This document shows positions 3,259 to 23,962 of a DNA stretch of 64,000 bases, in pieces. A program made the position numbers and the translations under genes. The DNA comes from Candidatus Desulfofervidaceae bacterium (GTDB taxonomy: Bacteria > Desulfobacterota > Desulfofervidia > Desulfofervidales > Desulfofervidaceae). The notes beneath the pieces are model-generated. The model made no database searches and was not told the DNA's origin. It saw only the letters and a list, made by a program, of their open reading frames with translations. The stretch covers positions 1 to 64,000 of the forward strand of contig JALWFG010000016.1 in NCBI GenBank assembly GCA_027038965.1, written 5' to 3'. Position 1 is the stretch's first letter; the number at the start of each line of letters is the position of its first letter.

Positions 3259-3265
3259 ATTTTGC

Positions 3266-3904: not shown

Positions 3905-3914
3905 TATTATTAAT

Positions 3915-4841: not shown

Positions 4842-4861
4842 ATTGTTGATGGTTTGTTTCC

Positions 4862-4934
4862 ACTTAACGACCAAGCTCACCTGACGCTATGAAGCGCCAG
4901 CGGAATAGCGGTCAGGTGAAGCTTTTTGTTATAT
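4862..4934 (-). repeat. attC recombination site 4
   Basis: A 73-base site bounded on the minus strand by ATATAAC and GTTAAGT, with arms CACCTGACCGCTATTCCGCT and AGCGTCAGGTGAGC. It is closely similar to attC 1 and attC 5, which suggests these cassettes came from one integron lineage. Confidence 0.82.
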
Positions 4935-4936
4935 TT

Positions 4937-5971: not shown

Positions 5972-5989
5972 GCATTATCCTCCTTTGAA

Positions 5990-6063
5990 ATATAACGACT
6001 AAGCCTCACCTGACGCTATGGAATGTCAGCGGAATAGCGGTCAGGTGAAGCGCATTGTTCGCT
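5990..6063 (-). repeat. attC recombination site 5
   Basis: A 74-base site bounded on the minus strand by AGCGAAC and GTTATAT, with arms CACCTGACCGCTATTCCGCT and AGCGTCAGGTGAGG, nearly the same as attC 1 and attC 4. Confidence 0.82.
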
Positions 6064-6065
6064 GA

Positions 6066-6533
6066 TCATTTCTGACTATCAAAACCCTCAAACCTCGGCC
6101 TTAACCTACACTGAAGAAATGCCTCCAGTAGCGATAAAATTGGCATTCCCAATCTTTCATCTAAAATAATGTTCAGTCTATCAGTATCAGACTTAATCCA
6201 ATTGCCAACGGTTGATTCAGAGAGATCGTGCAGTCCAAGTTTTATTTTGTCTTTGAGGATGGATTTCGCAAGGTTGCTGTTCGAACTGTTTGGATTGTAG
6301 TGTTGGCTCGTATATCGTGCTTGACTTTTGGGACCTACTTTACCGATCTTCAGGCAGTCATCACCCCAAAGAAATACATATACCGCCATTTTGCCTGAAG
6401 GGAGAGTTTTCGGGGGGATATGTGGTGCTTTCAATAATTCTGTAGTGATACTTCCGTCGGGGATATTGAGCCTAGCCAATTGGGCTACCTGAAGGAAATC
6501 TTTAATAAGTTGATCTATTTCTTTTTCTTCCAT
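6066..6533 (-). CDS. GIY-YIG-like nuclease cassette protein
   Basis: A 155-residue protein. The core reads AVYVFLWGDDCLKIGKVG (about residues 50-67), followed by ARYTSQHYNPNSSNS. This is the strand-Tyr-x-Lys-x-Gly pattern of GIY-YIG and T5orf172-type endonuclease domains, with a downstream Arg and Tyr. The acidic residue expected late in the domain could be E136 in LLEAFLQ. The whole protein is little more than the nuclease domain. The start codon lies 10 bases after the core of attC 6 and the stop lies just before attC 5, a minimal cassette. The DNA target is unknown. Confidence 0.65.
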   Translation of the reverse strand: MEEKEIDQLIKDFLQVAQLARLNIPDGSITTELLKAPHIPPKTLPSGKMAVYVFLWGDDCLKIGKVGPKSQARYTSQHYNPNSSNSNLAKSILKDKIKLGLHDLSESTVGNWIKSDTDRLNIILDERLGMPILSLLEAFLQCRLRPRFEGFDSQK

Positions 6534-6536
6534 TTT

Positions 6537-7339
6537 TCATCCAGCGAACAAAAAACTAACCAGCTCCGAAACATGCAGCGAAGCTGCGGGTTTCGGAGTC
6601 TGTGTTGAGTGATAGGTTATAAAACTATTTTTCTTTTTGATTAAAAACATTCCAAATATTGTTGAACCTAATAAAATAAAAGTTGATGGTTCAGGAGTAG
6701 CTGTTACTGAAATAAGCTGTGTTACCTTCGCATCGCGGATTTGGTTGTTAAAACGATATTTAATATGCATATATCCATCAGTATCAATTGTATAATCATA
6801 TTCTTGTTCGTTTTGTCCTGGAAAATTAGGATCATGAACAACAAATTTGTTAGGGTTGGTTTTCTTAGAAAATCCAGCAAGCCAATGGCCACCCCCTTGC
6901 CACTGTATTAGAATTAGAATCTTTTCTCCACGGTCAAGTTCTGAATCATAGAAGTCCCATTTTGGTATTTCGTCATCATATAAACCTTGCTGATTCCGAC
7001 GTAACCCAACGGATCTATTCTTAAACCAATTCTCTATCCCCTTCCACATCTCCCAATTATCAACCTCCCCTGGACCAAGATAATCCGTATGTTGGAGTGC
7101 CTGACTTAACTCATCTGCTTGATTCTCTGCTTGGTTAGGCTCAAGGTTCTGTGGGACCAACGAATTAAATTTTTCATCCCAATAGTCTAATATATTTGCT
7201 AATGCAATATGACCGCAGCTCTCATTGGTTTGCGTAGGATCAGACCAGTCATAGTCAAAATTCGGAATTGCAACTGAATATTGAGGGCTAACCAAAATCA
7301 TAATCAGTATTATCATTAATAAGAAAAAAATTTCTTCAT
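6537..7339 (-). pseudogene. PEP-CTERM protein with C39-like peptidase fold, frameshifted in the signal peptide
   Basis: The natural start is the ATG at 7339, which has a perfect ribosome site (AGGAGGT). From there the frame stops after seven codons because of a run of seven T (7324-7330). One more T would give a continuous signal peptide, MKKFFFLLMIILIMILVS. The frame resumes at 7316 and is otherwise intact to 6537. The mature part has NESCGHIALANILDYW (Cys) and GGGHWLAGF (His) followed by VHDPNFPG, the arrangement of C39/papain-like domains. The C-terminus reads TPEPSTFILLGSTIFGMFLI then KKK, a PEP-CTERM sorting signal for exosortase cleavage. The last 28 residues are read-through of attC 6. 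It is the first cassette after the attI-like site. Either a real inactivating indel, phase variation or a sequencing error in the homopolymer. Confidence 0.7.
6543..6622 (-). repeat. attC recombination site 6
   Basis: An 80-base site bounded on the minus strand by TTATAAC and GTTCGCT. Inner arms CTCCGAAACCCGCAGC and GCTGCATGTTTCGGAG form a long stem around the loop TTCG. The sequence family differs from attC 1, 4 and 5. The upstream cassette gene reads through it. Confidence 0.78.
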
Positions 7340-7890: not shown

Positions 7891-9486
7891 TCAATCTATA
7901 TCACCCTTCAAATATACTAATTCAATTCCTATTGCTTCTTTTTCAAAATCTCTAAGGTCTTTTTGTGTAAAAACATCCTGTTCAATCATGTCCACAAGCA
8001 CTACATATATCTTTGAATACTCTTTTGATGGTGCCCTTCTCAGTATTCTACCCATTCTTTGTATCCATTGCCTTACACTGCTTGTGCCAGCCACAATAAT
8101 CCCTGTTTCCGCAGCAGGAACATCAAATCCTTCATCCAGGGCTCTGCATGCTATGAGGACGTTTGTCTTTCCATCTTTAAATTCGGATATACTCGCCAAT
8201 CTTTCTTTTACAGGCATTTTTGAATGGTATATCCCAGCAGCAAATCCAATCTCCTTTAAGTATTTGAAGATGTGTTCGGCAATTTCAATTCTCTCGTGAA
8301 ATATGAGAACCTTTTCTTTGTCAAGCCTTTCTCCATTAAATAACCATTTAAGAGCATACAGTTTGGATTTTGATGAGTGTATTACTGATTTTCTCTGATT
8401 TAAAAGGGCAATGTATCTCGTTATAAGTTCATCTCTGTTTTTTTCGTGAAGTTTATTCAACTGCTTAACAAAATGGGCAGGAGATGCTTTTTTCAGCTCT
8501 GGATACCTGGATATTAAAACTCTCGTAAGCTTGTTTATTTTTCCTGCCAACTCTTCATAGGTAAACTCCTCTGATGGGGTAAGATGCACCATCAACCTTA
8601 TGATCTTATACGAGGGAATAATCCCATCCCTCAGAGCATCACTGTATGTGTAGGTGTATATCATATTGCCAAGATTTGGCACGAGTTTTTCTTCAAATCC
8701 ATAGTCTCCATACCTTTCTGGAGTGGCAGAAAGTCCTAAGGTGTATGAAAAAGGTATTTCAAATATTCTTGAATTTTCTTTACTCCCATACCTGTGACAC
8801 TCATCAGCAATCAGAAATAAATCATCGTGTTTGAAAAATTTTTCATAATGATTTTTCAAGTGAATTCTTGCCGAGTTAATAACATATATCAGTATGTTTT
8901 TATCCTTCACATTTTGCTTTTCTTTTCCATAAAAAACACCTATATTTTTTCTTGGTATATGAAGTTTATCAACTGTTTCAATGAGCCATTGGTCAAGAAG
9001 AACGGTGGTGGGAACGATTATGATAACTCTTAGGCCTCCATCTTTGTATGCTTCAGAGTTAAACAAATCGGAAATTAAAGAAAGGGCAAAAATTGTTTTT
9101 CCAGCACCGGTAACAATTTTGACAATCCCTCTTCCTCCATTTTCCCACCATGCTTTTTTAGCCTCTTTCTGCCATCTGTAAAGTTCAACTGAGAGTTTCC
9201 AGGGCAAATCCAGAAATTCGCCAGAGAAGAATTCAGCCACAACTCTTCTGCATATCTTGCAATCAAGCCTATCGCAGGTTTTGTCAAAATTTTTTATGGA
9301 GGCTATTTTTGTGAGGGCCTTTTCTAAATCAGGAATGATTTCTTCAGGGATGTTTTCCCTTTTTGTTAACTCCCAGCCAGCTTTTTCCAGCAAGTGAGCT
9401 ATTCTATCTAATCCAAATGTTCTGGCTCTTCTTGCTAAGTGGTGGAAATGCCAGCCTTCCCATCCATTAAGTTTTATTCTAACCAT
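7891..9486 (-). CDS. SF2 DEAD/DEAH-box helicase of the defence operon
   Basis: A 531-residue XPB/Rad25-like helicase. Seen motifs: Walker A VTGAGKT (about residue 130), motif II DECH, motif III LSATPER, motif V DEGFDVP and motif VI QRMGRILRR. An N-terminal 90-residue region holds a CKIC-type cysteine pair (DRLDCKICRRV), perhaps a metal site. In BREX and related systems a helicase of this class (brxH-type) accompanies the methylase and PglZ. It is the last gene of the nine-gene operon, starting two bases after the stop of the preceding gene, so it is translationally coupled. An attC-like palindrome follows its stop codon. Helicase class is sure; the BREX role is inferred from neighbours. Confidence 0.85.
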   Translation of the reverse strand: MVRIKLNGWEGWHFHHLARRARTFGLDRIAHLLEKAGWELTKRENIPEEIIPDLEKALTKIASIKNFDKTCDRLDCKICRRVVAEFFSGEFLDLPWKLSVELYRWQKEAKKAWWENGGRGIVKIVTGAGKTIFALSLISDLFNSEAYKDGGLRVIIIVPTTVLLDQWLIETVDKLHIPRKNIGVFYGKEKQNVKDKNILIYVINSARIHLKNHYEKFFKHDDLFLIADECHRYGSKENSRIFEIPFSYTLGLSATPERYGDYGFEEKLVPNLGNMIYTYTYSDALRDGIIPSYKIIRLMVHLTPSEEFTYEELAGKINKLTRVLISRYPELKKASPAHFVKQLNKLHEKNRDELITRYIALLNQRKSVIHSSKSKLYALKWLFNGERLDKEKVLIFHERIEIAEHIFKYLKEIGFAAGIYHSKMPVKERLASISEFKDGKTNVLIACRALDEGFDVPAAETGIIVAGTSSVRQWIQRMGRILRRAPSKEYSKIYVVLVDMIEQDVFTQKDLRDFEKEAIGIELVYLKGDID

Positions 9487-9487
9487 C

Positions 9488-9895
9488 TTATGCTTGTAGG
9501 TTTAATGGAGCTATGAAGTGCTTCAGATCCACTTGTTTAACTCTGCCAAATATGGGATAGGGTAAAATCTGCTTATCCTTATAATTTATTCTTGGTCTCT
9601 CAGAACTCTCCACAATTTCAATTTTTCCATCAACAACAATCTGAATTATGTAGTTTCCTCTCACGAGAAAGTTTGCAGCATCCTGAAGGAGATTTCTTAT
9701 TTTTCTTGAGATTGTTTTGGGTTCTTCGGAATAGTAAAGCAGGCTCTCTATGCCAAAAACGGCAAGGTTAAGTGGAAGTTTCTCCTCTTTGTAAACCTGC
9801 CTTAGAAATTCAACTATGCTCATTCTGTCTTTGAATATCTGAGTAAGATATTCCCTTTTTTCCATGATATTAAAGCCTATATCCATGCTTGCCAT
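9488..9895 (-). CDS. Small protein of the defence operon, unknown family
   Basis: A 135-residue soluble protein between the DUF1156 methylase and the helicase (gaps of 21 and 1 bases). The N-terminal half is helical (REYLTQIFKDRMSIVEFLRQVYKEE). The C-terminal half looks like short strands (NYIIQIVVDGKIEIVESSERP). It does not look like DUF3780, the small partner in some DUF499/DUF1156 loci, though it occupies a similar place. The start could be M1 at 9895 or M4 at 9886. It could be a specificity or adaptor subunit; there is no direct evidence. Confidence 0.65.
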   Translation of the reverse strand: MASMDIGFNIMEKREYLTQIFKDRMSIVEFLRQVYKEEKLPLNLAVFGIESLLYYSEEPKTISRKIRNLLQDAANFLVRGNYIIQIVVDGKIEIVESSERPRINYKDKQILPYPIFGRVKQVDLKHFIAPLNLQA

Positions 9896-9916
9896 TATTT
9901 ACACCCCCAGATGTTT

Positions 9917-12658
9917 TCAAAACCATCTGGTTTTTAAAAATGTTATTAATTCCCTATAAGTTTTGTCATTTTCAATTTCGTAAAGATATTCAAGGGTTCT
10001 GAGAACTGATTCCGAAGCCCACAGATTTTTTTCGTTTTTATCCAAGTTTGCTAAAAACCTGATGATATGCCCTTCCTTCCAGAGGTAATAGAGATAATGA
10101 ACTTTGTCTATGGCAGAAAGCTTTCTTTTTGATTCTATGATCTCTGCCCTATCATTTGGTTTCAGGATTGAAAGCTGGCTCCCTTCTTTTTCAACAAGCC
10201 CAGATTCCAGAACTTCCTTTATTGGAATATTTCTCATCTTTAGGGCCTTGTTCAGGGAATCATAGGATATGCTCGTTTTTCCAGCCATGTAGAATAGATA
10301 GACCGCCGTTATGGTGTCAGTCTCTGCTGCAACCTGATTAAAGCGTGTGTGCATTAGCTGGGAATCAACAATCTCTCTGATTGAGGATAGGGCTTCATCA
10401 ATGGATACTTTTTTACCGTTTCTGTAAACTTCAGGATAGTATTTGGAGTAGAGTTCAAGACACTTTCCTATGGTTATGACGAATATATCCTCCTGTGAAA
10501 GATTTCTCCTTCGTGTTTCAAGCCTTTTTATCTCATCCTGAACTTTGAAGTAGATCTCATCTTCTATCTGTGACCAGTATCTTTTTTCTGGCTTTTCTTT
10601 TCTCTTTCTGCAAACAACAACCATGTCATAGCGAACATTGGCTTTCTGGAAGATGTGAGGACTAACACCAGATTCTGATTGAACAGGATAAATGGCCGAG
10701 ATGTAAAAGCCTGCATTCAGAACAGATTGAAGCACTGCTCCCCAGGCTTTTTCTTCCTGATGGTGGAATGTAAAGACCATTAAGCCATCATCTTTTAACT
10801 TTCTTCCAGCTTCCTTGAAAACAGCAGTTAATCCTTCAATGAAGTCCCTTTCCTCTTTTTCCTGAACCTTATTTACTATAACTTCTGTTGCGTTTGGCAC
10901 ATGCTCACTCCTGAAGTATTCGTATTTGTCCTTCAATGCCAATCGAAGCCATGCGTAATAAAACTCTGAAAGCTCAGAATACATCACATTGCCGTAATAA
11001 GGTGGATCAGTTATAACAGCGTCAACGGATTTGTTTGGAATGTCAAGATAAGAAGAATCTCCGCAGGTTATCATGGCGTTTGCATTGTCGCTGAACACAT
11101 TGCCGAGTTTTCCAATTATCTGCATTTGCATGGGCTTTTCGTGAGTTTTGCCATTCTGGATGTATTTTTCGAAGGGTTTTATGTTGAATCGTTTTCCTTT
11201 TATTATCTTATTGACTTCATTTTTAAAAATGCCTCTCCCACCACCTTCAGAGTCCCAAACATTATTTTCTACAGGATTAAACGTTGTATGGAAAGCATGA
11301 ATCTTAAATAAATTATATAAATGCAATTTGTCTCGAGCATAATCACAAAGCATGTTCTGGAACTCTAAAAATTCAGAAAACGTAATCACCAACAACTCCA
11401 TCACATTCTCATCCACATCCAATTCTAAAATCGCCTTCAAAAGCTTCCCAAGGCTCAAAAGCTGCCTCTCATTAAACATGTCTTTCCAGTATTTGTAGCC
11501 ATGATTGATCATCTCCTTTGTCTTAATTCCGAGCGGAATCTCGGTATCCGGTATATACTTCCCAAGCCATTCCTCCTCCACACTTTTGAACTCTTCCTTG
11601 GCTCTCTCAAAAAGGACAAAATCAAACTCATCCGCCTGCTTGTAATCCTTTCTTCCACAGTGCGGGCAGTAATATTCAACAGCATAAAGCCTTTCTTCTG
11701 GCTTTCCTGTCTTCTGAATAGCCTCCACAATCACATTCTTCTGTCCGCAATGAGGATTTGTGCAGATGTAATATTTTCCTTCAACATTTCCATCGTTATC
11801 TGGATTAAACTTTTCTCCACATTTTGGACATTCTGTATCCGTTCTATAATCGCTAACGACAAAAATATTTCCACATCCGGGGCAGATCACATGATAACCT
11901 TTCTTATCCCTCGTTCTTGCAAGCATATAGCCTCTGAAAAGCGGGACTTTTGTTCCACAGGCAAGGCAGGGAACTCCCTTTATCCAGAAATAATACATTG
12001 TGTCAGCAAAAATATTTTTTTTGCCATGAAGTTTTGATTTGTCCTCAAACCAGTACTGCTCATAAACTTCCCTTGGGTCATTTGCAACTTTTAACTTCTC
12101 AACAACTTCTTTTAAAACATCCTTAGGTTTTCTGTTGTGAATCCTTGCGTATTCTTCTAAACAATGCGGGCATATCGTCTTGTAATATTTTTCTATTTCG
12201 TCAGCAACTTGGCTTTCCAGTTTCTTGAATGCATCTTTCAATTCATCAATATTCACCGGCTCCACAATCTTCTTCACCAAAAACCACGCAACTGGATTCA
12301 AATCCTGAGCAACAACCTTACAGCCTGTTCTCAACGCCTCAACAACAGTAGTTCCACCACCCATCATTGGATCAAGAACGATTTTTCCGCCAAAATCAAC
12401 ATCTCTGAGATACAAAAGCCACGGATTTTCCAGCTCTTCCTTCGTTATTTTTCGCCATTTACCCGTTCTCTCGTCTAAGACCTTGGTATTTTCATCAACA
12501 AGCGTATAAAGAACAATGGTTCTAAAGACACTTCCAAGCCTCCTTGCCCACCATTTGTGAATAAAAAGCACAGGTCTATACTTTTCCTTGGCATGGGCTT
12601 CTCTTTCTGCAATTTCATTCACATGCTCTATAGGAAAATCTTTTTCAATAGGCTTCAT
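9917..12658 (-). CDS. DUF1156 DNA methyltransferase (PglXI-like)
   Basis: About 913 residues from the ATG at 12658, which has a GGGAGGG ribosome site and overlaps the stop of the UvrD gene by 14 bases. The longer frame from 12748 would be inside that gene. The protein opens with KPIEKDFPIEHVNEIAERE and HKWWARRLGSVFRT, typical of DUF1156. Motif I is DPMMGGGTTVVEALR (AdoMet binding); motif IV is TDPPYYGNVMYSE (DPPY, amino-methylating). Between them are several zinc-ribbon cysteine pairs (CPHC, CLAC, CPGC, CPKC). DUF1156 adenine-type methylases are the modification enzyme of BREX type 3 and of DUF499/DUF1156 defence loci, marking host DNA as self. The domain call is strong; target site and base are unknown. 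Confidence 0.88.
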   Translation of the reverse strand: MKPIEKDFPIEHVNEIAEREAHAKEKYRPVLFIHKWWARRLGSVFRTIVLYTLVDENTKVLDERTGKWRKITKEELENPWLLYLRDVDFGGKIVLDPMMGGGTTVVEALRTGCKVVAQDLNPVAWFLVKKIVEPVNIDELKDAFKKLESQVADEIEKYYKTICPHCLEEYARIHNRKPKDVLKEVVEKLKVANDPREVYEQYWFEDKSKLHGKKNIFADTMYYFWIKGVPCLACGTKVPLFRGYMLARTRDKKGYHVICPGCGNIFVVSDYRTDTECPKCGEKFNPDNDGNVEGKYYICTNPHCGQKNVIVEAIQKTGKPEERLYAVEYYCPHCGRKDYKQADEFDFVLFERAKEEFKSVEEEWLGKYIPDTEIPLGIKTKEMINHGYKYWKDMFNERQLLSLGKLLKAILELDVDENVMELLVITFSEFLEFQNMLCDYARDKLHLYNLFKIHAFHTTFNPVENNVWDSEGGGRGIFKNEVNKIIKGKRFNIKPFEKYIQNGKTHEKPMQMQIIGKLGNVFSDNANAMITCGDSSYLDIPNKSVDAVITDPPYYGNVMYSELSEFYYAWLRLALKDKYEYFRSEHVPNATEVIVNKVQEKEERDFIEGLTAVFKEAGRKLKDDGLMVFTFHHQEEKAWGAVLQSVLNAGFYISAIYPVQSESGVSPHIFQKANVRYDMVVVCRKRKEKPEKRYWSQIEDEIYFKVQDEIKRLETRRRNLSQEDIFVITIGKCLELYSKYYPEVYRNGKKVSIDEALSSIREIVDSQLMHTRFNQVAAETDTITAVYLFYMAGKTSISYDSLNKALKMRNIPIKEVLESGLVEKEGSQLSILKPNDRAEIIESKRKLSAIDKVHYLYYLWKEGHIIRFLANLDKNEKNLWASESVLRTLEYLYEIENDKTYRELITFLKTRWF

Positions 12659-14591
12659 TAACATTCCCTCCCAACAGTCCCATTTCATACAAAAATTGAG
12701 ATGGCTGAACCGGTTGTTGCCCAGAACGGGTATATTTAAAATTAACATAACTAATAAATAGTTTCTCCTTTGTCCTCGTAATTGCTACAAAGCAATTTCT
12801 TCTTTCTTCTTCGAGATTTCTTATATTCCCAGAATTAGCTTCCCTAATTGCCCTATAATCTGGCCAAATCCCCTGATTCAGGGAAATAATAAACACATAA
12901 TCAAACTCCAACCCTTTGGATGCATGTCCTGTTAAAATTGCAACACCTTTTCCTTCTTTTTTAGACGACATAGCAAGAAAATTCAAAAATTCTCCCAAAT
13001 CGTCGGTCTTATGCTGCTTTTTAAAGTCCTTATATAAAGTTTCAATAAATTCTATATCTTCCATAATCTCTTCGGAATCCTGACTTTTGACAATTTCAAA
13101 AATTTGATTAAGGTAATCTTTTAAATTACCATTTTCATCTTTTTCTATTGCTTTTGCCAGTTCAGGGTCTATATCTCTCAATTCTTCAATGGCTACATCA
13201 AATAAAGTAAGATCTGTAACTTCCACCAGGTCTTCGTAATTCAAACCAAGATTTTCACATATTCTGTAGAACGAAATTTTATTGTTTCTACTCACCTTTA
13301 ATTTAAGAAAGTCAAGTACAAGGTTAATGTCTTTACTTATAATTTTCTCCTGTAACATTGGAACATAATACGGTATATTTTCCTTATCCAATTTTTTGAT
13401 TACTTCATTTAACACATATCTATTCCTGGCTATAACGCAAAATTTATTGTTTTGCTGAATAGGTATCCATTCAATTTTTTGAGAAATTTCTTTTATTTTC
13501 TTTACGACAAATTCGGCTTCTTCTGATTGGGTCTGAAAATTATTCAATTCAACTGCTTTTTTATCCGTATAGATATCACTTTTAGTGGCACGAATAGGTT
13601 CCTTTCCACTTAATCTAAGCTTATTATGGCTTATTAAATTATTGGCGATTTTTAGAATTTCTTGAGGGCATCTAAAACTTTCATAAAGTTGGATAACTTC
13701 CATATTGTAATGTTCTTTGAGTTCAACGAGATATTCAAACTTAGCATCGTTCCATTCAAATATCAGTTGGTCTTCGTCTGCTACTATAAAGAGATTAAGG
13801 CATTCTTGACCACATAAAAGCTTGATAAGCTCTAACTGTGCCCTGTTTGTATCCTGTCCTTCATCTATCAATATGTGTTTGTAAACCCTTCTTTGAAGGT
13901 CAGCTACAAAGGGATTTTCCTTAAGCAAACGAATAGAGTAATAAAGAAGATCGGAGAAGTCCAGCACATTGTTTTTTCTTAAAGTTTGCTGGTATAATTC
14001 AAAGATAAAAATAAAATCTTCAAAGTATTTTTTTTCTGAAAAGAAACTCTGTTTTAACTCCTCTGGGCCAATTAGGTTGTCTTTCAACTTCCTATAGGCA
14101 TAGTAAAACCCTGGGATTGTATTTTCAATTACTCTTGTATTTGCAAACCTTTCAATGAGAATAGGCTCTTTTTCTCCTTGCATTTCTTCCGATACTCTCT
14201 CCTTGACAGCATCAATCAGAAGAGCTATCAAGTCCTCGTGTTTATCAAAAATTACAAAATCAGGGTTTAATCCCACATATTCTCCATAAGCTCTCAGCAA
14301 ATCGTGACAATAACTATGGAATGTCCCAATGTATGTTCTTTTTATCTGTTCATTGACAAGAGATTCAACTCTTTCCCTCATTTCTTTAGCAGCTTTGCTT
14401 GTAAAGGTTAAGGCAAGGACTTTAAATTTCTCTTTGGGCGTTTGATTTAAAATATAAGCGATTCTTAAGGTTAGAACCTTTGTTTTCCCCGCGCCAGGTC
14501 CTGCAAGCACAAGAAGAGGGCCTTTTGAATAAGTAACGGCTTCTTTTTGTTGTGGTGTTAATCCCTCTAAAAAGTTATCCTTAGTTTTCAT
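12645..14591 (-). CDS. UvrD/Rep-family SF1 helicase (GajB-like)
   Basis: A 648-residue SF1A helicase. Motifs: Q motif LTPQQKEAVTY, Walker A AGPGAGKT, motif Ia LTFTSKAAKEMRERV, IGTFHSYCHDLLR, motif II IDEGQDTNRAQ, motif III VADEDQLIFEW, motif IV ESFRCP, motif V TGHASKGLEFDYVFI and motif VI ERRNCFVAITRTKEKLF. It starts 7 bases after the OLD-nuclease stop. An OLD nuclease directly followed by a UvrD-like helicase is the layout of Gabija (GajA-GajB). At 648 residues it is longer than common GajB. A generic repair helicase is possible but the gene pair makes Gabija-like the better reading. Confidence 0.85.
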   Translation of the reverse strand: MKTKDNFLEGLTPQQKEAVTYSKGPLLVLAGPGAGKTKVLTLRIAYILNQTPKEKFKVLALTFTSKAAKEMRERVESLVNEQIKRTYIGTFHSYCHDLLRAYGEYVGLNPDFVIFDKHEDLIALLIDAVKERVSEEMQGEKEPILIERFANTRVIENTIPGFYYAYRKLKDNLIGPEELKQSFFSEKKYFEDFIFIFELYQQTLRKNNVLDFSDLLYYSIRLLKENPFVADLQRRVYKHILIDEGQDTNRAQLELIKLLCGQECLNLFIVADEDQLIFEWNDAKFEYLVELKEHYNMEVIQLYESFRCPQEILKIANNLISHNKLRLSGKEPIRATKSDIYTDKKAVELNNFQTQSEEAEFVVKKIKEISQKIEWIPIQQNNKFCVIARNRYVLNEVIKKLDKENIPYYVPMLQEKIISKDINLVLDFLKLKVSRNNKISFYRICENLGLNYEDLVEVTDLTLFDVAIEELRDIDPELAKAIEKDENGNLKDYLNQIFEIVKSQDSEEIMEDIEFIETLYKDFKKQHKTDDLGEFLNFLAMSSKKEGKGVAILTGHASKGLEFDYVFIISLNQGIWPDYRAIREANSGNIRNLEEERRNCFVAITRTKEKLFISYVNFKYTRSGQQPVQPSQFLYEMGLLGGNVNEAY

Positions 14592-14598
14592 GGCCTAC

Positions 14599-16428
14599 TT
14601 ACTCTTGTTCTATCCTATCAAAAAGATTTTTTATAATTTCGGGTAGTTCCAAATTGTGCTCTATTATATATTCTGCTAAGGCTTCAGAGAATAAGATTTT
14701 GTGTTCCTTCAAAAAGTTCTTAAGGATTTCGTTAACGGATAAATTCTTATTATTAGGCTGTTTTTTATATTTTCGCCATAAAGAATTTAATCGGCTATCA
14801 TTTTCTAATATTTTAATAATTTTATCTTTGCCATAAAAACCAATCATATATTTTTCAAAATTCATACTTTTTGGAAGTGAATATAAATATCCTTGAATTA
14901 TTGATTCTACAAAGGCTTTACCAATTAAAGAGTTCTCAATCTTGATTTCCCTAAGCTCATAGCCGTTGTTTGATATGGCATTTTTTACTTCATCTATTGC
15001 ATCGCCATCTGATAAAATTACCCATTTTATATTAAAGGTGTCAGGTTGAGCAATCTTAAGAAAGGGATCATAAGTTTTTCCGTCACATGGTATTATAGTA
15101 ATTCCCAACTCTCCAGAGGTTCTCTTCAAATAATATGGAATAATTCTTTCCAGAAAAATTTTTTCTGTATCTCCTTCACAAAGCAAAAACAAAGAAGCAA
15201 AGAAAAGTTCAGGATTTCGGTATTGGACAAATCTGTTAATTTTTAATTCTTCCTCTTTATTCAGAAACTTATTGTGCTCATAGGCTTGTTCAGGAAGACC
15301 GTATCTAAATTGAAAGTTCTTTTTAAATCTGGGAATCTTAGATAATTTCGTAAATCCGTTATCTAAACGAAATACTATATAATCATAAATATCCGCCTGC
15401 TCCACGATATACGGAGAATGGGTACTTATTATTTTCTGACCTTTTATTTGTGAAATCTGATGGAAAAGAGCCCTCTGAACATGGGGATGAACATGAGCTT
15501 CAGGCTCTTCAATTCCAATGATTGGTGTTGCTTCTTCATTATCAAGTATCTTAGGAAGCAATATTTCAAGATATGCAGAAAATATGAGTAGAACAACGAT
15601 ATTCTGTGTTCCAGCTCCATGCTTTGCTATTGGTAACGATAAATTCGTGTTAGGCAATTTTAGATAGATGTTCAAGTCATCAAGAATTTCCCAGCTTCTG
15701 CGGGCAAAAGCTTGGAGGAAAATTGCATCTTGCGTGATTTTAATACTTCTTTCAAGATTTTTTAACTTTGTCTTAAGTTGTTCAATTGTTTCATTGTCTG
15801 AAAGTACAACATCATCTATTTTACGAATTAGCTCTTCTATTTGGTCTTTCTTCTCTGAATAATCAATAATTGATTTTATCCTTCCCCAAAATGACCCTTT
15901 TGTTTTTATTTCTTTATTGATATCCCTTAATGCGGGTATGTAAAAGAACGGGAAAAAACTCAGATGTTCTTTTTTAACTTCTGGATTCCTTGCAAGTTTC
16001 TTGTTGTTTTCATCAACAAAATATCTATCTTCTGTAAATCTACCTTTTTCTTTGTCAAACCTACATTCATAACAGATACGAAAAAATTTAATCGGATCGT
16101 CCGGGTATTGTGCTTTATCAAATCTAATGGCTTTATCAAAAGTGCTTACAATACTGTCTGAAAATCTTTCATCTAAGGTTTCCCTGAATTCTATAATTAT
16201 TTTTACAGGCTCTGCGTTTTTAGGATCAAAATTGTCCCCTTCTGCATAGAAGTCGTCTTCAGTAGGAACTGTTCTTCTTTCCCAACCAATTGCCAGATTC
16301 AATGCATGTAAAAAGGAAGTTTTACCCGCATTGTTAGGCCCAATTAACACATTGATATTATCTGATAATTCAACTCTTGTTTTTTTGTGACTTCTAAAGT
16401 TATATATTTCAACTTTGTATATATGCAT
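14599..16428 (-). CDS. OLD-family ATP-dependent nuclease (GajA-like, AAA + TOPRIM)
   Basis: About 609 residues from the ATG at 16428, 8 bases after a GGAGG site; the GTG at 16437 is too close to that site. The N-terminal ABC-type ATPase has Walker A GPNNAGKTSFLHAL, signature-like LPIAKHGAGTQN, Walker B IGIEEPEAHVHP and the switch ISTHSPYIVEQAD. The C-terminal TOPRIM nuclease has LLCEGDTEKIFL (catalytic Glu) and VILSDGDAID (metal-binding acidic pair). This two-domain order and length match GajA and class 2 OLD proteins. Followed by the UvrD-like helicase, as in Gabija, where GajA cuts phage DNA when nucleotides fall. Here the pair is embedded in a larger operon. Confidence 0.86.
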   Translation of the reverse strand: MHIYKVEIYNFRSHKKTRVELSDNINVLIGPNNAGKTSFLHALNLAIGWERRTVPTEDDFYAEGDNFDPKNAEPVKIIIEFRETLDERFSDSIVSTFDKAIRFDKAQYPDDPIKFFRICYECRFDKEKGRFTEDRYFVDENNKKLARNPEVKKEHLSFFPFFYIPALRDINKEIKTKGSFWGRIKSIIDYSEKKDQIEELIRKIDDVVLSDNETIEQLKTKLKNLERSIKITQDAIFLQAFARRSWEILDDLNIYLKLPNTNLSLPIAKHGAGTQNIVVLLIFSAYLEILLPKILDNEEATPIIGIEEPEAHVHPHVQRALFHQISQIKGQKIISTHSPYIVEQADIYDYIVFRLDNGFTKLSKIPRFKKNFQFRYGLPEQAYEHNKFLNKEEELKINRFVQYRNPELFFASLFLLCEGDTEKIFLERIIPYYLKRTSGELGITIIPCDGKTYDPFLKIAQPDTFNIKWVILSDGDAIDEVKNAISNNGYELREIKIENSLIGKAFVESIIQGYLYSLPKSMNFEKYMIGFYGKDKIIKILENDSRLNSLWRKYKKQPNNKNLSVNEILKNFLKEHKILFSEALAEYIIEHNLELPEIIKNLFDRIEQE

Positions 16429-16433
16429 ATTGC

Positions 16434-17579
16434 TCACCTCCTCGGTATAACCACTATAAACTCCGTTTCCGTCTCTTTTAACTCAACATCCTTTCCAACA
16501 TGCTCTTTTACAAGCCTTATTATCCTCATAACACCGCTTCCAAGGTCTGTAACAAGCCCCATTTTTGAAAGCAGGTTGTATATGGTTGGGTTTCTCAAAA
16601 CATGGGCACCACCAATTTTAATGCTCTCAATTGTAACAGAATTTGGAAGCTTACCTGGCGAATGGAACTCAATTTTGTCTCTGAATATGAATACTCTTAT
16701 GGGCGCTCTCACGGTATAATCTCTGTGAGCAACAGCGTTGACTATTGCTTCTCGGACAGCCTCCTCAGGTATCTCAGGATATACTTCAGGTTCAAGTGAT
16801 TTTATCCTGTGTTCTTCTCTCAGATAGATTCTTAAATACTGCATGAGTTTTTCAAGCATTTCAGGAATTTTGCCCTCAAAATCTTTTTTATCAGCAGGTG
16901 GCACTGAGATGTCCTCACCAGGTATGTAAGCAGCAGTTATTTTTACATAGGGCAAATAACTTTGAGGATTTATGCCAAAAAATAAAAGCCCAGCTAAAGT
17001 GGGTTTCCTATTTTCTGTAATGGTCTTAAGGTTTTTAAGGTAATTAAAAATCTGGTCTCCTTCTGGTCTGAAACCATAAAAACGTTCCATAAATTCCTCA
17101 AAGTAATCAATATCAATATCATCAAAGGACGCCTTTGCAATTTCTATTTCATCGTAAAAAATACTTTCTGTGGCTTGAAAAAGTCTCAAGAGTTCTTCCC
17201 TTGAAGCTCGCCTAACTCTATTTGCGCTCCTTATGTAAAAAAATCCACTACTTGTTCTGTAAGGTCTCTGATCACCCTTAGGAACATTAATGACTATTAC
17301 ATGCCTATTACCCACTTTTACTGTTTCAGGAAGCACTGTAATTGGCGGTTCACAGCGGTTATAGGCAACATCATCTACCCTTCTTAGAACTTCATCCGGA
17401 TTTGATACACCAACGATTTCTCCTTCGTCTGATACTCCTATAATAATTTGCCCACCGTCTGTATTGGCAAAGGCAACTATCTCCTTGGCAAGGTCTTCAT
17501 TACTGGGAAGGTATTCCTTAAATTCTGTGTGTAAATCTTCTTTTTTCTCAATTCTTTCAAATAGTTCTTCACTATCCAT
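16434..17579 (-). CDS. Schlafen AlbA_2 domain protein with C-terminal HATPase_c_4-type domain
   Basis: A 381-residue protein. The N-terminus is the AlbA_2 nucleic-acid-binding fold: ESEE-like start, EDLHTEFKEYL, LAKEIVAFANTDGGQIIIGV and RPYRTSSGFFYIRSAN. The C-terminal half contains EAVREAIVNAVAHRDY and FRDKIEFHSPGKLP, then GSGVMRIIR, the pattern of the ATPase-like domain in RecG-like transcriptional regulators. Such proteins are frequent in defence islands and may regulate the operon or act as a nucleic-acid sensor. Its ATG directly abuts the stop of the PHP-ATPase gene and its stop overlaps the ribosome site of the nuclease gene. Domain call strong; role unknown. Confidence 0.84.
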   Translation of the reverse strand: MDSEELFERIEKKEDLHTEFKEYLPSNEDLAKEIVAFANTDGGQIIIGVSDEGEIVGVSNPDEVLRRVDDVAYNRCEPPITVLPETVKVGNRHVIVINVPKGDQRPYRTSSGFFYIRSANRVRRASREELLRLFQATESIFYDEIEIAKASFDDIDIDYFEEFMERFYGFRPEGDQIFNYLKNLKTITENRKPTLAGLLFFGINPQSYLPYVKITAAYIPGEDISVPPADKKDFEGKIPEMLEKLMQYLRIYLREEHRIKSLEPEVYPEIPEEAVREAIVNAVAHRDYTVRAPIRVFIFRDKIEFHSPGKLPNSVTIESIKIGGAHVLRNPTIYNLLSKMGLVTDLGSGVMRIIRLVKEHVGKDVELKETETEFIVVIPRR

Positions 17580-20264
17580 CTAAATTCCCCCGTATTTTTC
17601 AGCTCTTAATCTGAATGCTTTTTCTCCACCTTCCATAATGTTTTTAACAAAATTCCTGATTGATACTTTATCAACAGAGCCTGTATCAACTATTTTACAT
17701 ACACCTTCCTCAGATTCCAGCACAATTATCTGTTCCGAATCTCCTATTACAGGAATATTTGCATTATGTGTCGCTATAACAAACTGTTTTCTTGATTTGT
17801 AATCTCGCAGTATTTTAACAACATCTTCATAAATGAATCTGTTATCAAGATCTTCTTCTGGCTGGTCAAGGACGAGGATTCTATCTTCTTGAGCGAATAA
17901 TAGAAGGAGTAAAGCTGTTGCTTTCTGCCCGTCTGAAAGTCTTTCTATGTCTTTAAAATCGTTATCAACTTTGAGTTTAATTATTATCTTATCTTCTGGA
18001 AATAGAGTTTCCAGTTCAAAAAGCTTTTTCTCATCACTAAACCAAGAAACAAATTTTTCAGCCATGGTATCAGTAAGACTGAACCTTTCAATTATTTTTT
18101 CCTTCCCCTCTTGGATATATTCAGAAAGGAGTAACCCATCAACCGCAAGCTTAGAGGAAACAACATTATTTATTGCATTTTTGTGAATTCCTGAACTTAT
18201 CAGCAGGCTTTTCAGTCTTTTTTCAAATTCAGTTCTATCTTCTTCAAATTTAACCTCAAGTTTAAGTCTTCCTTTCAGCTTTTCGTTAATCTCTTCGACT
18301 CTCTTTTGTCTAATAGCAAAAAGCTCATGTTTTTTCTCTTTGAGCTGGTTTTTTAATTTTTCCCTATCTTTTAATTTTGTATTAAACCTCTCTTCAGCCT
18401 TTTTAAGTTCCTCAATTTGAGGTTCAAGTACAGCTTTCCTTTTTGTCAGTTCTTCCAGCCTTTCTGGCTTTAATCTTTGGCTACCAAGTTCTCTTTTTAC
18501 TTTTTCAATTTCAGTCTCTACTTTTCGTTTATGTTGTTGCCATTTATTTATTTCATTGTCATAATCTTTTTTAAACTCCTCAAGTCTATTCAGTAGAGTA
18601 GCCAACATGCTGTCTTCATACTTTTTAAATTCTTCACATATTCTCTGCATTCTTTCTATGCTCTCGTGATGAGTCTTAGACCTTTCCAGTCTCTCTTTCA
18701 AACCGCTTAGCTCTTCATTTAAATAACTCTTCACTTCTTGCACTCTATCTATGGCTTCTTTTATTTTCTCAAAACTATCTTTGATCAGTTCGTCATCAGC
18801 AATAGTGTCTGTAAGCCGTTTTAGCTTATCTACCACTCCAAGGTCTTCAAAAATTTTTATCTCGTCCTCTATGCTCTTTAATTCCTGTTCACATTCATCT
18901 TTCTTAAAAATCTTTTTCTTAAGCCGAATTACTTCATCTCCATTGACCTTAAGCTTTTCAACCAGCTCATTAAATTCCTTATGTTTGTCTTTTATGCTCT
19001 CGCCTATTAGTTCATCAACAAGTTTGAGTCTAAAGTTATGATCTCTTGCTACATAGTAAAGTTCTTTTTGTCCGATTATGATCGGTAATTTGCCATCAAA
19101 TAGGGTTCCCACATCAATATTGAGCCTATTATTATTTTCATCGTAAATCTCTACTTCTTTACCTACTGTCCTGCGAATAATATAGTTCCTCTTTTGATCT
19201 CCATAGTGTCTCTGCACATATATCTCTACGATTCCACCGCTTCCTACAACATCATGAACAAAATTAGTCCTGTATTCAGGATCGCTGTAAACCTGAAGAC
19301 CTAAGCCGTACCTTATTGTTTCAATAATGGCAGATTTCCCAACACCACGCCCGCCTATTAGGGTGTTCATTTCGGGATTGAAGTAAATTGATAGATCCTT
19401 CAGAAAACCGGAGCCATTTATTTTTACACCGGTGATCCAGTCGTGGGTCATTTCGGGCGGTGAATAAATGGCAACCCTGACAGAAGGGTCGTGGAGGGCA
19501 AGCTTTATGGCATCTAAGGAAAAGTCGCTTAACTTAAGATAAGTAGCTCTTGCTTTTCCATCTCTTTTTTTATTTCCTATCTCTTCAAGGCATTTGGGGT
19601 CAGAGTTTTCAATTTGAGCAATTCGTTCAAGTTCCTCTTTTGTTAACACGCCAGTAGAAAGTAACTTATTCTTGGTAGAGTCGCTAAATTGTTCAATAGC
19701 ATCGGGCTTTATGTTTTTTATGTATTTTGCGGCCTGCTCTGGGTTAAAACTTTTAAAAATTCCTTTATCATCTTCTGGATGGGCGAAGATGACAAGACAG
19801 TTAAATTTACTCCTTATCTCCGAGATGAGTTGTTCAAGTTCATACTTACTTTCCAGTCTTCTATGAGTTCTACCTTTAACAAGATTATTTTGAGGATTTT
19901 TATCTAAGCTATGGATAAACCTATTTATTCCTTCTAGATTTTCTCTTTCATCAAAAATCAAAAGTAGGTGCAGTCCATATTTGCCTCCTGTAAATTCCAC
20001 ATCAAGTTCAACACCTGGTAAAATAATGATACTATATTTGTTAGCTTTTTCCTTTATTCGTTCAAACCAATCCTCTCTTATAAGATTGTAATCTGTAATT
20101 GTGGCGATTTTTATATTTGCATCTCTCAACTTTTTTACATACTCCTCAGTAAGCTTTTTAATATCTGAGTCTGAATCCAAATTTAAGCCAGATGGAAGCA
20201 AAAAACTTGACGATGCTGGGCTATGTAAATGAAAATCCACTCTTACCCACTCAGCTCCCCTCAT
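17580..20264 (-). CDS. TrlF-like PHP phosphoesterase fused to SMC-type ATPase
   Basis: About 894 residues from the ATG at 20264, which follows GGAGG and overlaps the PglZ stop as ATGA. The N-terminal PHP domain shows VDFHLHSPASS, ITDYNLI, GVELDVEFTG, HLLLIF and IFAHPEDD, the metal-binding histidines and acids of PHP hydrolases. From about residue 305 an ATPase begins (Walker A GGRGVGKSAIIETIRYG), then about 350 residues of coiled coil rich in K and E, then FERLSDGQKA-like signature (ERLSDGQKATALLLLLF) and Walker B ILVLDQPEEDLDNRF with IATHNANIPV. TrlF-type proteins are known from defence islands and plasmids; a phosphoesterase or nuclease acting on DNA or tRNA is possible. Confidence 0.86.
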   Translation of the reverse strand: MRGAEWVRVDFHLHSPASSSFLLPSGLNLDSDSDIKKLTEEYVKKLRDANIKIATITDYNLIREDWFERIKEKANKYSIIILPGVELDVEFTGGKYGLHLLLIFDERENLEGINRFIHSLDKNPQNNLVKGRTHRRLESKYELEQLISEIRSKFNCLVIFAHPEDDKGIFKSFNPEQAAKYIKNIKPDAIEQFSDSTKNKLLSTGVLTKEELERIAQIENSDPKCLEEIGNKKRDGKARATYLKLSDFSLDAIKLALHDPSVRVAIYSPPEMTHDWITGVKINGSGFLKDLSIYFNPEMNTLIGGRGVGKSAIIETIRYGLGLQVYSDPEYRTNFVHDVVGSGGIVEIYVQRHYGDQKRNYIIRRTVGKEVEIYDENNNRLNIDVGTLFDGKLPIIIGQKELYYVARDHNFRLKLVDELIGESIKDKHKEFNELVEKLKVNGDEVIRLKKKIFKKDECEQELKSIEDEIKIFEDLGVVDKLKRLTDTIADDELIKDSFEKIKEAIDRVQEVKSYLNEELSGLKERLERSKTHHESIERMQRICEEFKKYEDSMLATLLNRLEEFKKDYDNEINKWQQHKRKVETEIEKVKRELGSQRLKPERLEELTKRKAVLEPQIEELKKAEERFNTKLKDREKLKNQLKEKKHELFAIRQKRVEEINEKLKGRLKLEVKFEEDRTEFEKRLKSLLISSGIHKNAINNVVSSKLAVDGLLLSEYIQEGKEKIIERFSLTDTMAEKFVSWFSDEKKLFELETLFPEDKIIIKLKVDNDFKDIERLSDGQKATALLLLLFAQEDRILVLDQPEEDLDNRFIYEDVVKILRDYKSRKQFVIATHNANIPVIGDSEQIIVLESEEGVCKIVDTGSVDKVSIRNFVKNIMEGGEKAFRLRAEKYGGI

Positions 20265-21157
20265 TTCTCTACCTCCAGCACAGGTACAAAACATTCCATC
20301 AGGCTCAAACCGCCATGAATATAGATGCTGTATCTTCCCGAAACAGGCCATAAATAGCGGGACTTTGCTATGTAATAGCCATTAAATTCTTTGACGTATC
20401 CTTCATTTATCAAGTCTTCAACGTTAATGCTATCTATTTTCACATATCTTTTGCTACCAAAAAACTGCTGGAATTTTCTCTTTGCTTTATCTGATACGGA
20501 AAAAACAAAGCCTGCTTCCGTCCTTATATATCCGTGATCAGATGTGATGACTATCCTATCAGCCCTAATCTTTGCTAAAATTTCAAGGACTATTTTCTCC
20601 ACAACTTTATACATCTCTTCAAGCGATGAAATTACAGCATGACCCGTTTTTATCTTATCCAGCATCACATCCGGGAAGCATGACCAGATATATTTCTCAT
20701 CACCGGCAAGTCTTATGCTCTTTGGGTTATTTATCTGAGAAAACACACTCAGTGGCTTTTTAATCTTCTCTCTGAAAAATTCAGTATCAGAAGGTATGGC
20801 AGAAAAGTTAAGTTCATAATTTACATTGTATCCCTCGTCCTTTAGAAGGTTATACAGCAATGTGCTTTCCCTTAGGCTCATTCCGTCCATTATTACTATC
20901 GTTGCATCCGGGTATAACTGAAAAACATCCTTCTCCTTTAAACATGCTTTTGCAAGCAGGTCATAAAATTCCCAGTATGATTTCAAAATAAACTCTTCAA
21001 AATCTCTTGCTTCTTCTTCACCCTTGTAGTAATAGTCGCCAATTTTCTTTTCCTTTTCAGCAATACTCAACCATAACTTCAAAAGCTTGTCACTTGCAAT
21101 AGCAACTGGATTGGTGCTTTCAATAAGCTCCATCACAAAATTGGTTTCAACTTTCAT
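20261..21157 (-). CDS. pglZ: Short PglZ-domain protein
   Basis: A 298-residue protein consisting almost only of the PglZ (alkaline-phosphatase-like) domain. Metal and core motifs seen: ATIVIMDGMSLRES (about residue 89), SAIPSDTEFF, VITSDHGYIRTE and IHGGLSLMECFVPVL, the hallmark HGGxSxxExxVP end. Typical BREX PglZ proteins are around 800-900 residues, so this is a short form, as found in some DUF499-associated loci. It overlaps the upstream ATPase gene by 11 bases and the downstream gene by 4. In BREX, PglZ is essential and interacts with the methylase and the large ATPase. The domain is certain; the reaction is not known. Confidence 0.88.
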   Translation of the reverse strand: MKVETNFVMELIESTNPVAIASDKLLKLWLSIAEKEKKIGDYYYKGEEEARDFEEFILKSYWEFYDLLAKACLKEKDVFQLYPDATIVIMDGMSLRESTLLYNLLKDEGYNVNYELNFSAIPSDTEFFREKIKKPLSVFSQINNPKSIRLAGDEKYIWSCFPDVMLDKIKTGHAVISSLEEMYKVVEKIVLEILAKIRADRIVITSDHGYIRTEAGFVFSVSDKAKRKFQQFFGSKRYVKIDSINVEDLINEGYVKEFNGYYIAKSRYLWPVSGRYSIYIHGGLSLMECFVPVLEVEK

Positions 21158-23570
21158 CTTTTTCCCTCCAGAGTATCACTTCTGCCTCAATTTCACACTC
21201 TTCCTTATGAGGAAGTTGCTTGACAAATTTCATGATTTCCTGTTTGGTGAGCTTTTGTTTAAAGCTGTATTTTACACAAATTTCCTCAAATTCATCTTTC
21301 TCGCTTGTTCTGGCTTCAATCTGGCTGAGGATGACTCTGGGGGAATTTCCAGCAAGAGATAGCTCCTTTTTCTCTTTTCTTTCTACAGTAACTTTCGGCT
21401 TCCCTTCAATTTCGGGTATCTCTCCTTCTACCTCCACTCCTTCAGCTTCTACAGAAATTTTGGGTTTCTCAAGTTCGGGCGTATATTTTGGATGAACAAT
21501 ACCAAAAGAAAGCTCTATGCTTCTCGGAGATTCATCAATATACCATTTCCCCCTTTCACCTTGAATAATTACCCTTTTATCCCTGTGCAGGTCTCTTATA
21601 GCTGTGTAAATGACTTCATCATCCAGAATAAAAGGATATTTTCTATATTTTTTGAAATCATTTATCAATTCTTCCATCCTTATACCGCTTGGTTTATCCT
21701 CTATTAACTTAACAATGAAATCACCGATCACTCCAAGATCACTCTTAGCTTTCTCCCTTATAGCATTTATATCTGCACTTGCATTTATCAACCTGTAAGT
21801 TAAATCTCCTTTACGTTCTACCCATTTCACAATATAGCCATAGTAGGCTTTTATTTTATCTGCAAGAGCTTTTTTTTCTTCCTGAATGATCTTGCTTAAT
21901 CTTCCTTCCTCTTTTACTTGGTTCATTAAATTCTCAGCAGCCTTCAACCTCTTGCCTTTCTCCATACTCTCAAATGAAAATATTGTGTTCACCTCTGGTA
22001 GCACGAGAATGTAAGTATTCTGCCATGTTTTTCCCTTGTAAAATTCGTTTAACTTGCCTTTTAACTTATCATTCACTCCCCATGATTCTGGCAATACAAC
22101 AATCTTGACCTTACTATGGTCTGGTATCTCATCAAAACCAAATATAAAGACTCTATTCTCGAAAATATCCTTTTTTACTATTTCAGCGATTTTCTTTTTA
22201 ACTTCCTCCTCGGAGAGTTTGCTCTTTTCTTTTTCAAGCAATGCATAAATATTGAGCTCATGCTTGAATAAGTAAATACCATTTTCCCTGTGGAGGTAGT
22301 GAGGTTTGCCGTAAATATTTTCAATATCCATGAGAATGGAGTTCAAAGTATGTCCTTCTGTCGGGCTAAATATTGACAACAGGATGTCTGATTCCGTTGC
22401 GCCATGAGTTTTCTCATTCAATGAGAAAATCAATATCGTTTTAAGTATCTCTTTAGCAAATCCGATATCTTTCACTCTCTCCAGGTCGAACTCATATTTC
22501 TCAATCAGCTTCAAATCTATGCCTCTAAAAGCATTCTCATCAACATCACTGACTAAAACGAGGTCCTTTCTTTCATATGTATCTTTTACAGCATCAGCAA
22601 GCACATTCAACATGCCCCTTATATCTTGCCTTTCAGATGCAGCTTCATATATCTGGAACAGGGTATCTAAGAGTAGAGGATGGAATGGGTATGTTCTGAT
22701 CATTCTCCGCTTATAATTCTGTTTATCGTCAATTTTTATGGGTTCGGAATATGCGTTAATGTATTTTTCCACCACAGTCCCAACTTTACTGTCATTCACA
22801 CTTTCCACATCCTCAAAAAGCCGGTGCAGTATCACCTTCTCTCTGTCCTCAACCGGGCTTACATCTATCCTGACTGGCTTTGTTCTGTTAAAAACTTTCT
22901 TCAGCCCCTCTTTTTCCTCCAAAAACGTTATGAAGACAAATAGCTTTTTTGTAGGGTCTGTAGCAACCTCTAATAGGTGTTCTAAAAACGTCTCATTCTG
23001 TTCGATAAGATGTGCTTGTTTTTCTGGATCAAAAGCACCATACCAGTTTTCTATCTCATCTATAAATATTGCAACAGTATCATCGCCAATCATTTCTTCA
23101 ATTTGATCGGTTGTCGGGAATCTCTTGATTTCACCAAGTATGTCCTCTCTCCCCAAAAGCTTGAAAATAGGGTCCCATAAATGGTCAACATCGTACCTTC
23201 TTGTAGATACTATAACTGACCGCGATTTTTCGGGTATTTCAAAATCTATTTTCCACTGTTTCCCCCAATCTTTTGCTAATGAAGGGTTGTTAAACAGGTG
23301 GTAAAGAGTTATCAGAGTATGAGATTTTCCTGAACCATAAGGACCTACAAGTAAGAATCCCCCCTGGTTAGATTTTTTAGAGAGTTTTTCTTCTATCCTT
23401 TCAAGAGTTCTTTTTATTGCTGAAGAAGGGTAAGTAATTTTCAGAAATTCTTGAGGATTGTTTTCAAGCCGTTTTTCTTTTACATCCACCTTATGTGTTT
23501 GTATTACGCCTTGAAATGTCCCTTCAAGCACATCTTTTCTGGGTTTCAAAATATCACTTATCTTATACAT
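21147..23570 (-). CDS. DUF499 / BrxC-like AAA+ ATPase
   Basis: An 807-residue P-loop ATPase, first gene of the defence operon, with ribosome site GGAGG 9 bases before ATG. The N-terminus (SDILKPRKDVLEGTFQGVI, then PQEFLKITYPSSAIKRTL) follows the DUF499 pattern. Walker A is LVGPYGSGKSHTLITLYHLF (about residue 80) and Walker B is VAIFIDEIENWYG (about residue 165). The C-terminal 150 residues contain a winged-helix-like part and a proline/glutamate-rich linker. DUF499 ATPases are the large ATPase component in BREX-like and DUF499/DUF1156 systems and may scan DNA or assemble the complex. A 21-base perfect palindrome lies 47 bases upstream of the start. Confidence 0.86.
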   Translation of the reverse strand: MYKISDILKPRKDVLEGTFQGVIQTHKVDVKEKRLENNPQEFLKITYPSSAIKRTLERIEEKLSKKSNQGGFLLVGPYGSGKSHTLITLYHLFNNPSLAKDWGKQWKIDFEIPEKSRSVIVSTRRYDVDHLWDPIFKLLGREDILGEIKRFPTTDQIEEMIGDDTVAIFIDEIENWYGAFDPEKQAHLIEQNETFLEHLLEVATDPTKKLFVFITFLEEKEGLKKVFNRTKPVRIDVSPVEDREKVILHRLFEDVESVNDSKVGTVVEKYINAYSEPIKIDDKQNYKRRMIRTYPFHPLLLDTLFQIYEAASERQDIRGMLNVLADAVKDTYERKDLVLVSDVDENAFRGIDLKLIEKYEFDLERVKDIGFAKEILKTILIFSLNEKTHGATESDILLSIFSPTEGHTLNSILMDIENIYGKPHYLHRENGIYLFKHELNIYALLEKEKSKLSEEEVKKKIAEIVKKDIFENRVFIFGFDEIPDHSKVKIVVLPESWGVNDKLKGKLNEFYKGKTWQNTYILVLPEVNTIFSFESMEKGKRLKAAENLMNQVKEEGRLSKIIQEEKKALADKIKAYYGYIVKWVERKGDLTYRLINASADINAIREKAKSDLGVIGDFIVKLIEDKPSGIRMEELINDFKKYRKYPFILDDEVIYTAIRDLHRDKRVIIQGERGKWYIDESPRSIELSFGIVHPKYTPELEKPKISVEAEGVEVEGEIPEIEGKPKVTVERKEKKELSLAGNSPRVILSQIEARTSEKDEFEEICVKYSFKQKLTKQEIMKFVKQLPHKEECEIEAEVILWREKDES

Positions 23571-23637: not shown

Positions 23638-23962
23638 CCCAATATTTTATTTCTCTGGGCGTCCTCTTCATGCACACAGTAGGAAGCCACCAATATTTAA
23701 ACCCTCTATCCCTCTTGCCGCCTCATCCACCATCAACCTAAAGTCAAACCAGCCCCTTCTTCTCCCTGTAGGCTCATTTGCTTCCTACTCTTGCCATTTT
23801 AAGATAACCCTCTGAGGTTGTCAAAATATTAATGCCCACCACAGCAGAGCAAAACAAAAAGCTCAAAAAAAGACGGGGAAAGAACTTTACAGACGGCATT
23901 TAACACGCTCAGGCAAGGGGGCAATTTATGCCTTTTGAATTGCTTTTATACCTTTGTTTACA
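23638..23962. other. Gap between divergent defence operon and RelBE-like module
   Basis: About 325 bases without a convincing gene. It holds a 10-base inverted repeat, AGTAGGAAGC at 23678-23687 and GCTTCCTACT at 23780-23789, separated by 92 bases. I see no clear -35/-10 pair for the defence operon. Confidence 0.4.

Follow-up and report, generated by a model that had tools for sequence, protein, structure and literature searches.

The closest described relatives of the operon analysed here are the type 3 BREX-related (BR) systems, BREX standing for bacteriophage exclusion, that centre on a DUF499 ATPase (Rakesh & Krishnan 2026, PMC12839542). They combine this ATPase with a stand-alone, active PglZ, a helicase, a small conserved protein and a DUF1156 methylase with a Cys-rich zinc-finger-like insert, and are found in both archaea and bacteria; an iSTAND component is present in 82% of the taxa that carry them (PMC12839542). 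That BREX and BR loci recruit OLD and Schlafen proteins as backup effectors is already published: in one survey OLD-ABC accompanies them in at least 1242 taxa and Schlafen in at least 1017 (PMC12839542). Additional effectors are known from other systems too. PrrC, embedded in the type IC locus EcoPrrI, acts as a guardian (PMC12707154), and BrxU, inside the BREX operon of E. fergusonii, is an independent defence layer (PMC8565348). Here we describe a nine-gene operon at 7891–23570 (minus strand) of a 64,000-nucleotide stretch of contig JALWFG010000016.1 from a Candidatus Desulfofervidaceae bacterium (the window), in which a Gabija pair and a TrlF/AlbA_2 pair are nested between the PglZ and methylase genes of a core of the BREX type. 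We interpret it as a BREX-related modification-restriction operon with an internal slot for exchangeable cargo, the modules probably being functionally separable layers, and give this reading a probability of about 70%.

All nine open reading frames were confirmed. The starts used for TrlF (ATG at 20264) and the methylase (ATG at 12658) are those backed by homology, the raw list having placed them too far upstream, at 20351 and 12748. The operon reads as follows, in gene order:

21147–23570, minus strand: core gene 1, P0001, DUF499/HmaC-type AAA+ ATPase, 807 residues (PADLOC HmaC 9.5e-24, DUF499 3.3e-11)
20261–21157, minus strand: core gene 2, P0002, stand-alone PglZ, 298 residues (Pfam PglZ 3.2e-7, residue alignment, AlphaFold2 model)
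12645–20264, minus strand: nested four-gene cargo block at the PglZ/methylase junction (DNA homology break against locus L040)
17580–20264, minus strand: cargo gene 1, P0003, TrlF-family PHP domain with SMC-like ATPase (NCBIfam NF045780 3.8e-143)
16434–17579, minus strand: cargo gene 2, P0004, AlbA_2/Schlafen core (SLFN_AlbA_2) with HATPase_c_4, 381 residues (Pfam 4e-26, 5e-19)
14599–16437, minus strand: cargo gene 3, P0005, GajA, OLD ATPase with TOPRIM, 612 residues (PADLOC GajA 5.4e-104, OLD-like_TOPRIM 1.1e-14)
12645–14591, minus strand: cargo gene 4, P0006, GajB, UvrD-like helicase, 648 residues (PADLOC GajB 1.2e-154)
9917–12658, minus strand: core gene 3, P0007, DUF1156/HmaB N6-adenine methylase (Pfam DUF1156 6.8e-6, N6_N4_Mtase 2.5e-13, PADLOC HmaB 2e-45)
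9488–9895, minus strand: core gene 4, P0008, conserved 135-residue protein (alignments; position kept in distant archaeal and bacterial loci)
7891–9486, minus strand: clade-specific core gene 5, P0009, superfamily 2 (SF2) helicase, TIGR04095/PbeA-like, 531 residues (family scans, homologues)

With these starts the gaps at the successive junctions are −11, −4, 0, −4, +7, −14, +21 and +1 bases. A preliminary description of the window had seen nine same-strand genes with gaps of −14 to +21, and two defence pairs lodged, within a single closely coupled operon, between PglZ and methylase, and in both respects it was right. Its family names also stood up to family scans, with two refinements. The gene it called PHP-SMC belongs to the TrlF family, with a full-length match to NF045780 at 479 bits against a curated cut-off of 350, and the last helicase is nearer to TIGR04095/PbeA than to the BREX helicases: its best NCBIfam match is TIGR04095 (DNA phosphorothioation restriction; 5.6e-64, below the curated cut-off), and it matches PADLOC PbeA at 7.7e-79; ResIII is also among its best matches, whereas those to SNF2 are weak. 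The ATPase P0001 is far closer to HmaC/DUF499 than to BrxC in PADLOC, although its match to NCBIfam DUF499_antiphage (2e-19) lies below the cut-off of that model.

The earlier label "BREX type 3-like" was close but imprecise. BREX type 3 has the same logic of methylase, PglZ, ATPase and helicase, and one BREX-3 locus (L158) likewise has TrlF-AlbA_2 nested in it, but the window lacks BrxC/DUF6079, its PglZ stands alone and its SF2 helicase is of another family. The Hma/type 1 BR systems share an HmaB-like methylase and an HmaC-like ATPase with the window; they lack PglZ, however, and fuse their helicase to a nuclease, whereas the ATPase of the window is without HEPN. The best fit is type 3 BR, with which the window shares the ATPase, the stand-alone PglZ, the methylase with its Cys-rich insert and a small conserved protein; it differs in helicase and cargo. 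The type 3 BR helicase is a BrxHII-like Tudor-Swi2/Snf2 protein without a nuclease, and P0009 does not have that architecture, so we file the operon as a variant of type 3 BR rather than a member; other loci in the phylum encode SNF2 helicases of 929–950 residues. Nested cargo is limited in the published survey, while that of the window is large. The cargo itself contains a complete Gabija pair, known here from its genes, with GajA (OLD plus TOPRIM) directly followed by the UvrD-like GajB, but lying within the operon of another system instead of free-standing. As with PrrC, BrxU and PARIS, an extra effector gene lies in or beside a restriction or BREX operon; unlike them, the window uses other protein families and holds two modules at once, at a junction that is reused.

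Evidence for an insertion slot comes from the nearest relative, another bacterial genome, whose core proteins are 76–85% identical to those of the window and whose operon is without the cargo block. On one contig (L040) it encodes PglZ, methylase, the 135-residue protein and helicase with 82, 85, 79 and 77% identity, respectively, and its PglZ and methylase genes overlap by 11 bases. This contig breaks inside PglZ, and a second (L161) holds the remainder together with a DUF499 gene whose product is 84–85% identical to P0001. The end of L161 overlaps L040 exactly over 127 bases, so the operon of the relative is continuous there and the site is empty. DNA homology between the window and L040 stops at ~20288, at the end of PglZ, and restarts at ~12658, at the start of the methylase; this clean break at both ends means that the window holds a 7.6-kb block of four genes at an otherwise closed junction. 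A further locus, L042 (61/47/67%), is likewise empty at this point, and the many empty loci, judged from sequence comparison, favour insertion of the block over its loss elsewhere. In L040 a 352-residue protein with no family match is encoded at 3689–4747, between the 135-residue protein and the helicase, and a second insertion point may therefore exist.

The same junction is occupied by other genes elsewhere. Coding inserts were counted by hand in core loci picked by methylase or PglZ similarity. The PglZ/methylase junction was occupied in 10 of the 27 loci bearing PglZ, the DUF499/PglZ junction in none of 26 and the junction of the methylase with the 135-residue protein (or iSTAND) in one of 24. 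This bias has a Fisher p of 6.5e-5, or 1.2e-4 after thinning of related loci, values that are indicative since the loci were chosen by similarity and are non-independent. Occupants of the PglZ/methylase junction elsewhere are:

L043: HD, HD-associated (HD_assoc) and DarG-C-like
L113: MNT and HEPN
L054: HSDR_N-like protein and a 400-residue partner
L049: 148-residue protein
L184 and L185: Fic
L186: PIN
L188: ABC ATPase and 190 residues
L162 (13967–14960), PglZ side: HEPN and a RAMP; L041 (3–2207, same genome), methylase side: three genes, two of them for RAMP proteins

The last pair probably encodes the effectors of a type III-B CRISPR system (Cmr-like) inside a BREX-related operon, if the two pieces, as we infer, belong together. 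No overlap of the L162 and L041 contig ends was found, the middle part being unassembled. Cmr2 was considered as a bridge and rejected; the only Cas10-type match of this genome is on a contig that resembles a separate type III-A locus. In another type 3 BR locus, L189, an ABC ATPase and DUF4276 pair lies at 9621–11365, between the methylase and the small protein.

The modules also occur apart from this core. The 395 genomes searched from the phylum to which the host belongs gave 19 TrlF loci, spread over 17 genomes, and an AlbA_2 gene adjoins TrlF at 15 of the 19. Over 14 loci the distance matrices of TrlF and AlbA_2 correlate with r = 0.96, a value reached in none of 2000 permutations. On these sequence comparisons the two are a co-evolving pair. 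In two type III restriction systems (L126, 4744–13115; L127, 4039–12878) TrlF-AlbA_2 separates the methylase gene from that of the restriction subunit; it also lies between PglX and PglZ of a BREX-1 locus (L129), between PglXI and PglZ in L158 and inside an Hma/BR-1 locus (L155). In L156 (1302–11104) a Gabija pair is placed just upstream of it beside a methylase gene, with the order of the modules reversed relative to the window. Five further loci (L152–L154, L157, L160) have TrlF-AlbA_2 without visible defence neighbours, the two closest TrlF homologues (L125, L148) are without AlbA_2, and a Listeria plasmid carries TrlF alone. Gabija pairs are free-standing on plasmids (L123, L124); GajA had no match at E ≤ 1e-40 among 117 other genomes of the phylum.

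Thus the suggestion that the nine genes form one composite system, with nine mutually dependent products and with GajAB and TrlF-AlbA_2 switched on by the core proteins, is not upheld, and we regard it as unlikely. The tight overlaps run across the whole operon, the cargo lies between essential core genes and not at an edge, and no internal promoter rises above chance, all of which a composite would explain. But the close relative has the core without the cargo, unrelated cargo occupies the same junction in other genomes, and both Gabija and TrlF-AlbA_2 are found away from this core. The nine-gene order itself, which the preliminary description proposed to look for, was found in no other genome of the sets searched, which comprised the phylum, GTDB species genomes, plasmids and IMG/VR. 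The outcome that this description named as refuting a composite, with the BREX-type genes, TrlF/AlbA and OLD/UvrD moving as separate units with their own promoters, was largely borne out as to separate occurrence, but a consensus scan revealed no separate internal promoters for the cargo modules above the level of shuffled sequence. Shared expression therefore remains likely.

Passive clustering in a defence island, where the block reached the junction by chance and its placement is functionally meaningless, seems to us quite unlikely. Defence genes do group in islands, and an integrase gene and a tRNA-Sec gene lie 6–7 kb upstream. Against this, one of the three core junctions is repeatedly occupied, in 10 of 27 cases compared with 1 of 50 at the other two; the inserts have intact reading frames and coupled starts; and in several unrelated systems TrlF-AlbA_2 separates the methylase from PglZ or Res. 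That the operon is chiefly a Gabija system, with BR genes left as decaying remnants, as the short PglZ and helicase compared with classical BREX could suggest, is scarcely credible, given that all core reading frames are intact and that PglZ has a conserved length, conserved catalytic residues and a well-folded model.

The length of PglZ, 298 residues as first reported, is shared by its homologues elsewhere (296–322 residues). D91, D207, H208 and H281 do not vary among the 12 aligned sequences, and the AlphaFold2 model (predicted local distance difference test score, pLDDT, 88.8) matches the folds of PorX and BREX PglZ. We conclude that it is short by nature and not truncated. The core is defined by five genes with counterparts in the same order elsewhere: DUF499 ATPase, PglZ, DUF1156 methylase, 135-residue protein and SF2 helicase. 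Haloarchaeal plasmids have a contiguous DUF499-PglZ-methylase-132-residue arrangement, the 132-residue protein aligning to P0008 at 35–37%, and helicases of the P0009 type are common only to a close clade (L040, L041, L043; 59–77% identity). P0008 was considered as a possible iSTAND; its model (pLDDT 87.8) has weak matches to RecA/AAA-like folds (E > 0.1), and its profile matches the 166-residue small protein of canonical type 3 BR loci weakly (E = 0.15).

Several points weigh against an exchangeable slot with separable layers. No other genome was seen to have the exact four-gene block, and its two modules may have arrived separately or together; the core loci are partly related by phylogeny; the promoter scan gave no separate promoter; and the gene overlaps could reflect a closer functional integration than we assume. 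In addition, backup nucleases in type 3 BR have been reported in only limited instances (PMC12839542), so that frequent use of the slot may be largely a feature of certain lineages.

Starting from what was observed directly (the anatomy and coupling of the operon, the empty site, the alternative occupants and the separate occurrence of the modules), we infer the biochemical activities and the backup role. Homology suggests that motif recognition and the marking of self DNA would fall to the adenine methylase together with the DUF499 ATPase, and that the ATPase and helicase would scan or remodel DNA. PglZ and the SF2 helicase would act on unmarked invader DNA, with PglZ attacking as a nuclease; for the PglZ of type I BREX, a nuclease activity that depends on metal has been described (PMC12205998; PMC12839542). 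The 135-residue protein may be an adaptor, perhaps the counterpart of the BR iSTAND. TrlF-AlbA_2 would combine a PHP-ATPase sensor with a Schlafen-type RNase as a PrrC-like abortive backup once restriction is challenged, and the Gabija pair would form an independent nuclease layer. Being translationally coupled to the core, the cargo would be made together with it. A wider idea, to which we give rather less than even odds, is that TrlF and AlbA_2 make up a guardian module, as yet uncharacterised, which is built into several modification-based defences (type III restriction, BREX-1, BREX-3, BR-1 and BR-3) and is set off by inhibition of the host system, and that the PglZ/methylase junction of BR operons is a dedicated dock for co-expression of such modules with the methylase.

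The total of promoter-like sites in the scan of the operon was not above that of shuffles. The best lies upstream of the first gene:

23796–23824, minus strand: promoter-like site, TTGACA-17-TAAAAT, 11 of 12 positions (consensus match only)

Further upstream, a phage-type integrase gene (29546–30277, minus strand) adjoins the tRNA-Sec gene (30909–31006, minus strand), and the operon is probably part of an integrated island; no direct repeat of at least 14 bases of the tRNA-Sec region, as expected of an attachment site, was found within the window. Downstream, at 2329–7316 (minus strand), are six same-strand reading frames, among them those for a DUF6602 protein, a DUF4145 protein and a 259-residue protein with a PEP-CTERM-like tail.

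In the limited literature searched, the concentration of a slot in type 3 BR-like operons and a TrlF-AlbA_2 module spanning restriction types appear to be unreported, and no paper was found that treats TrlF together with phage. As TrlF and AlbA_2 co-evolve and are nested in several unrelated restriction systems, a guardian role is directly testable. The operon suggests that a BREX-related system serves as a chassis that puts different effector modules to use at one and the same internal junction: Gabija here and, it seems, type III-B CRISPR effectors in a second genome.

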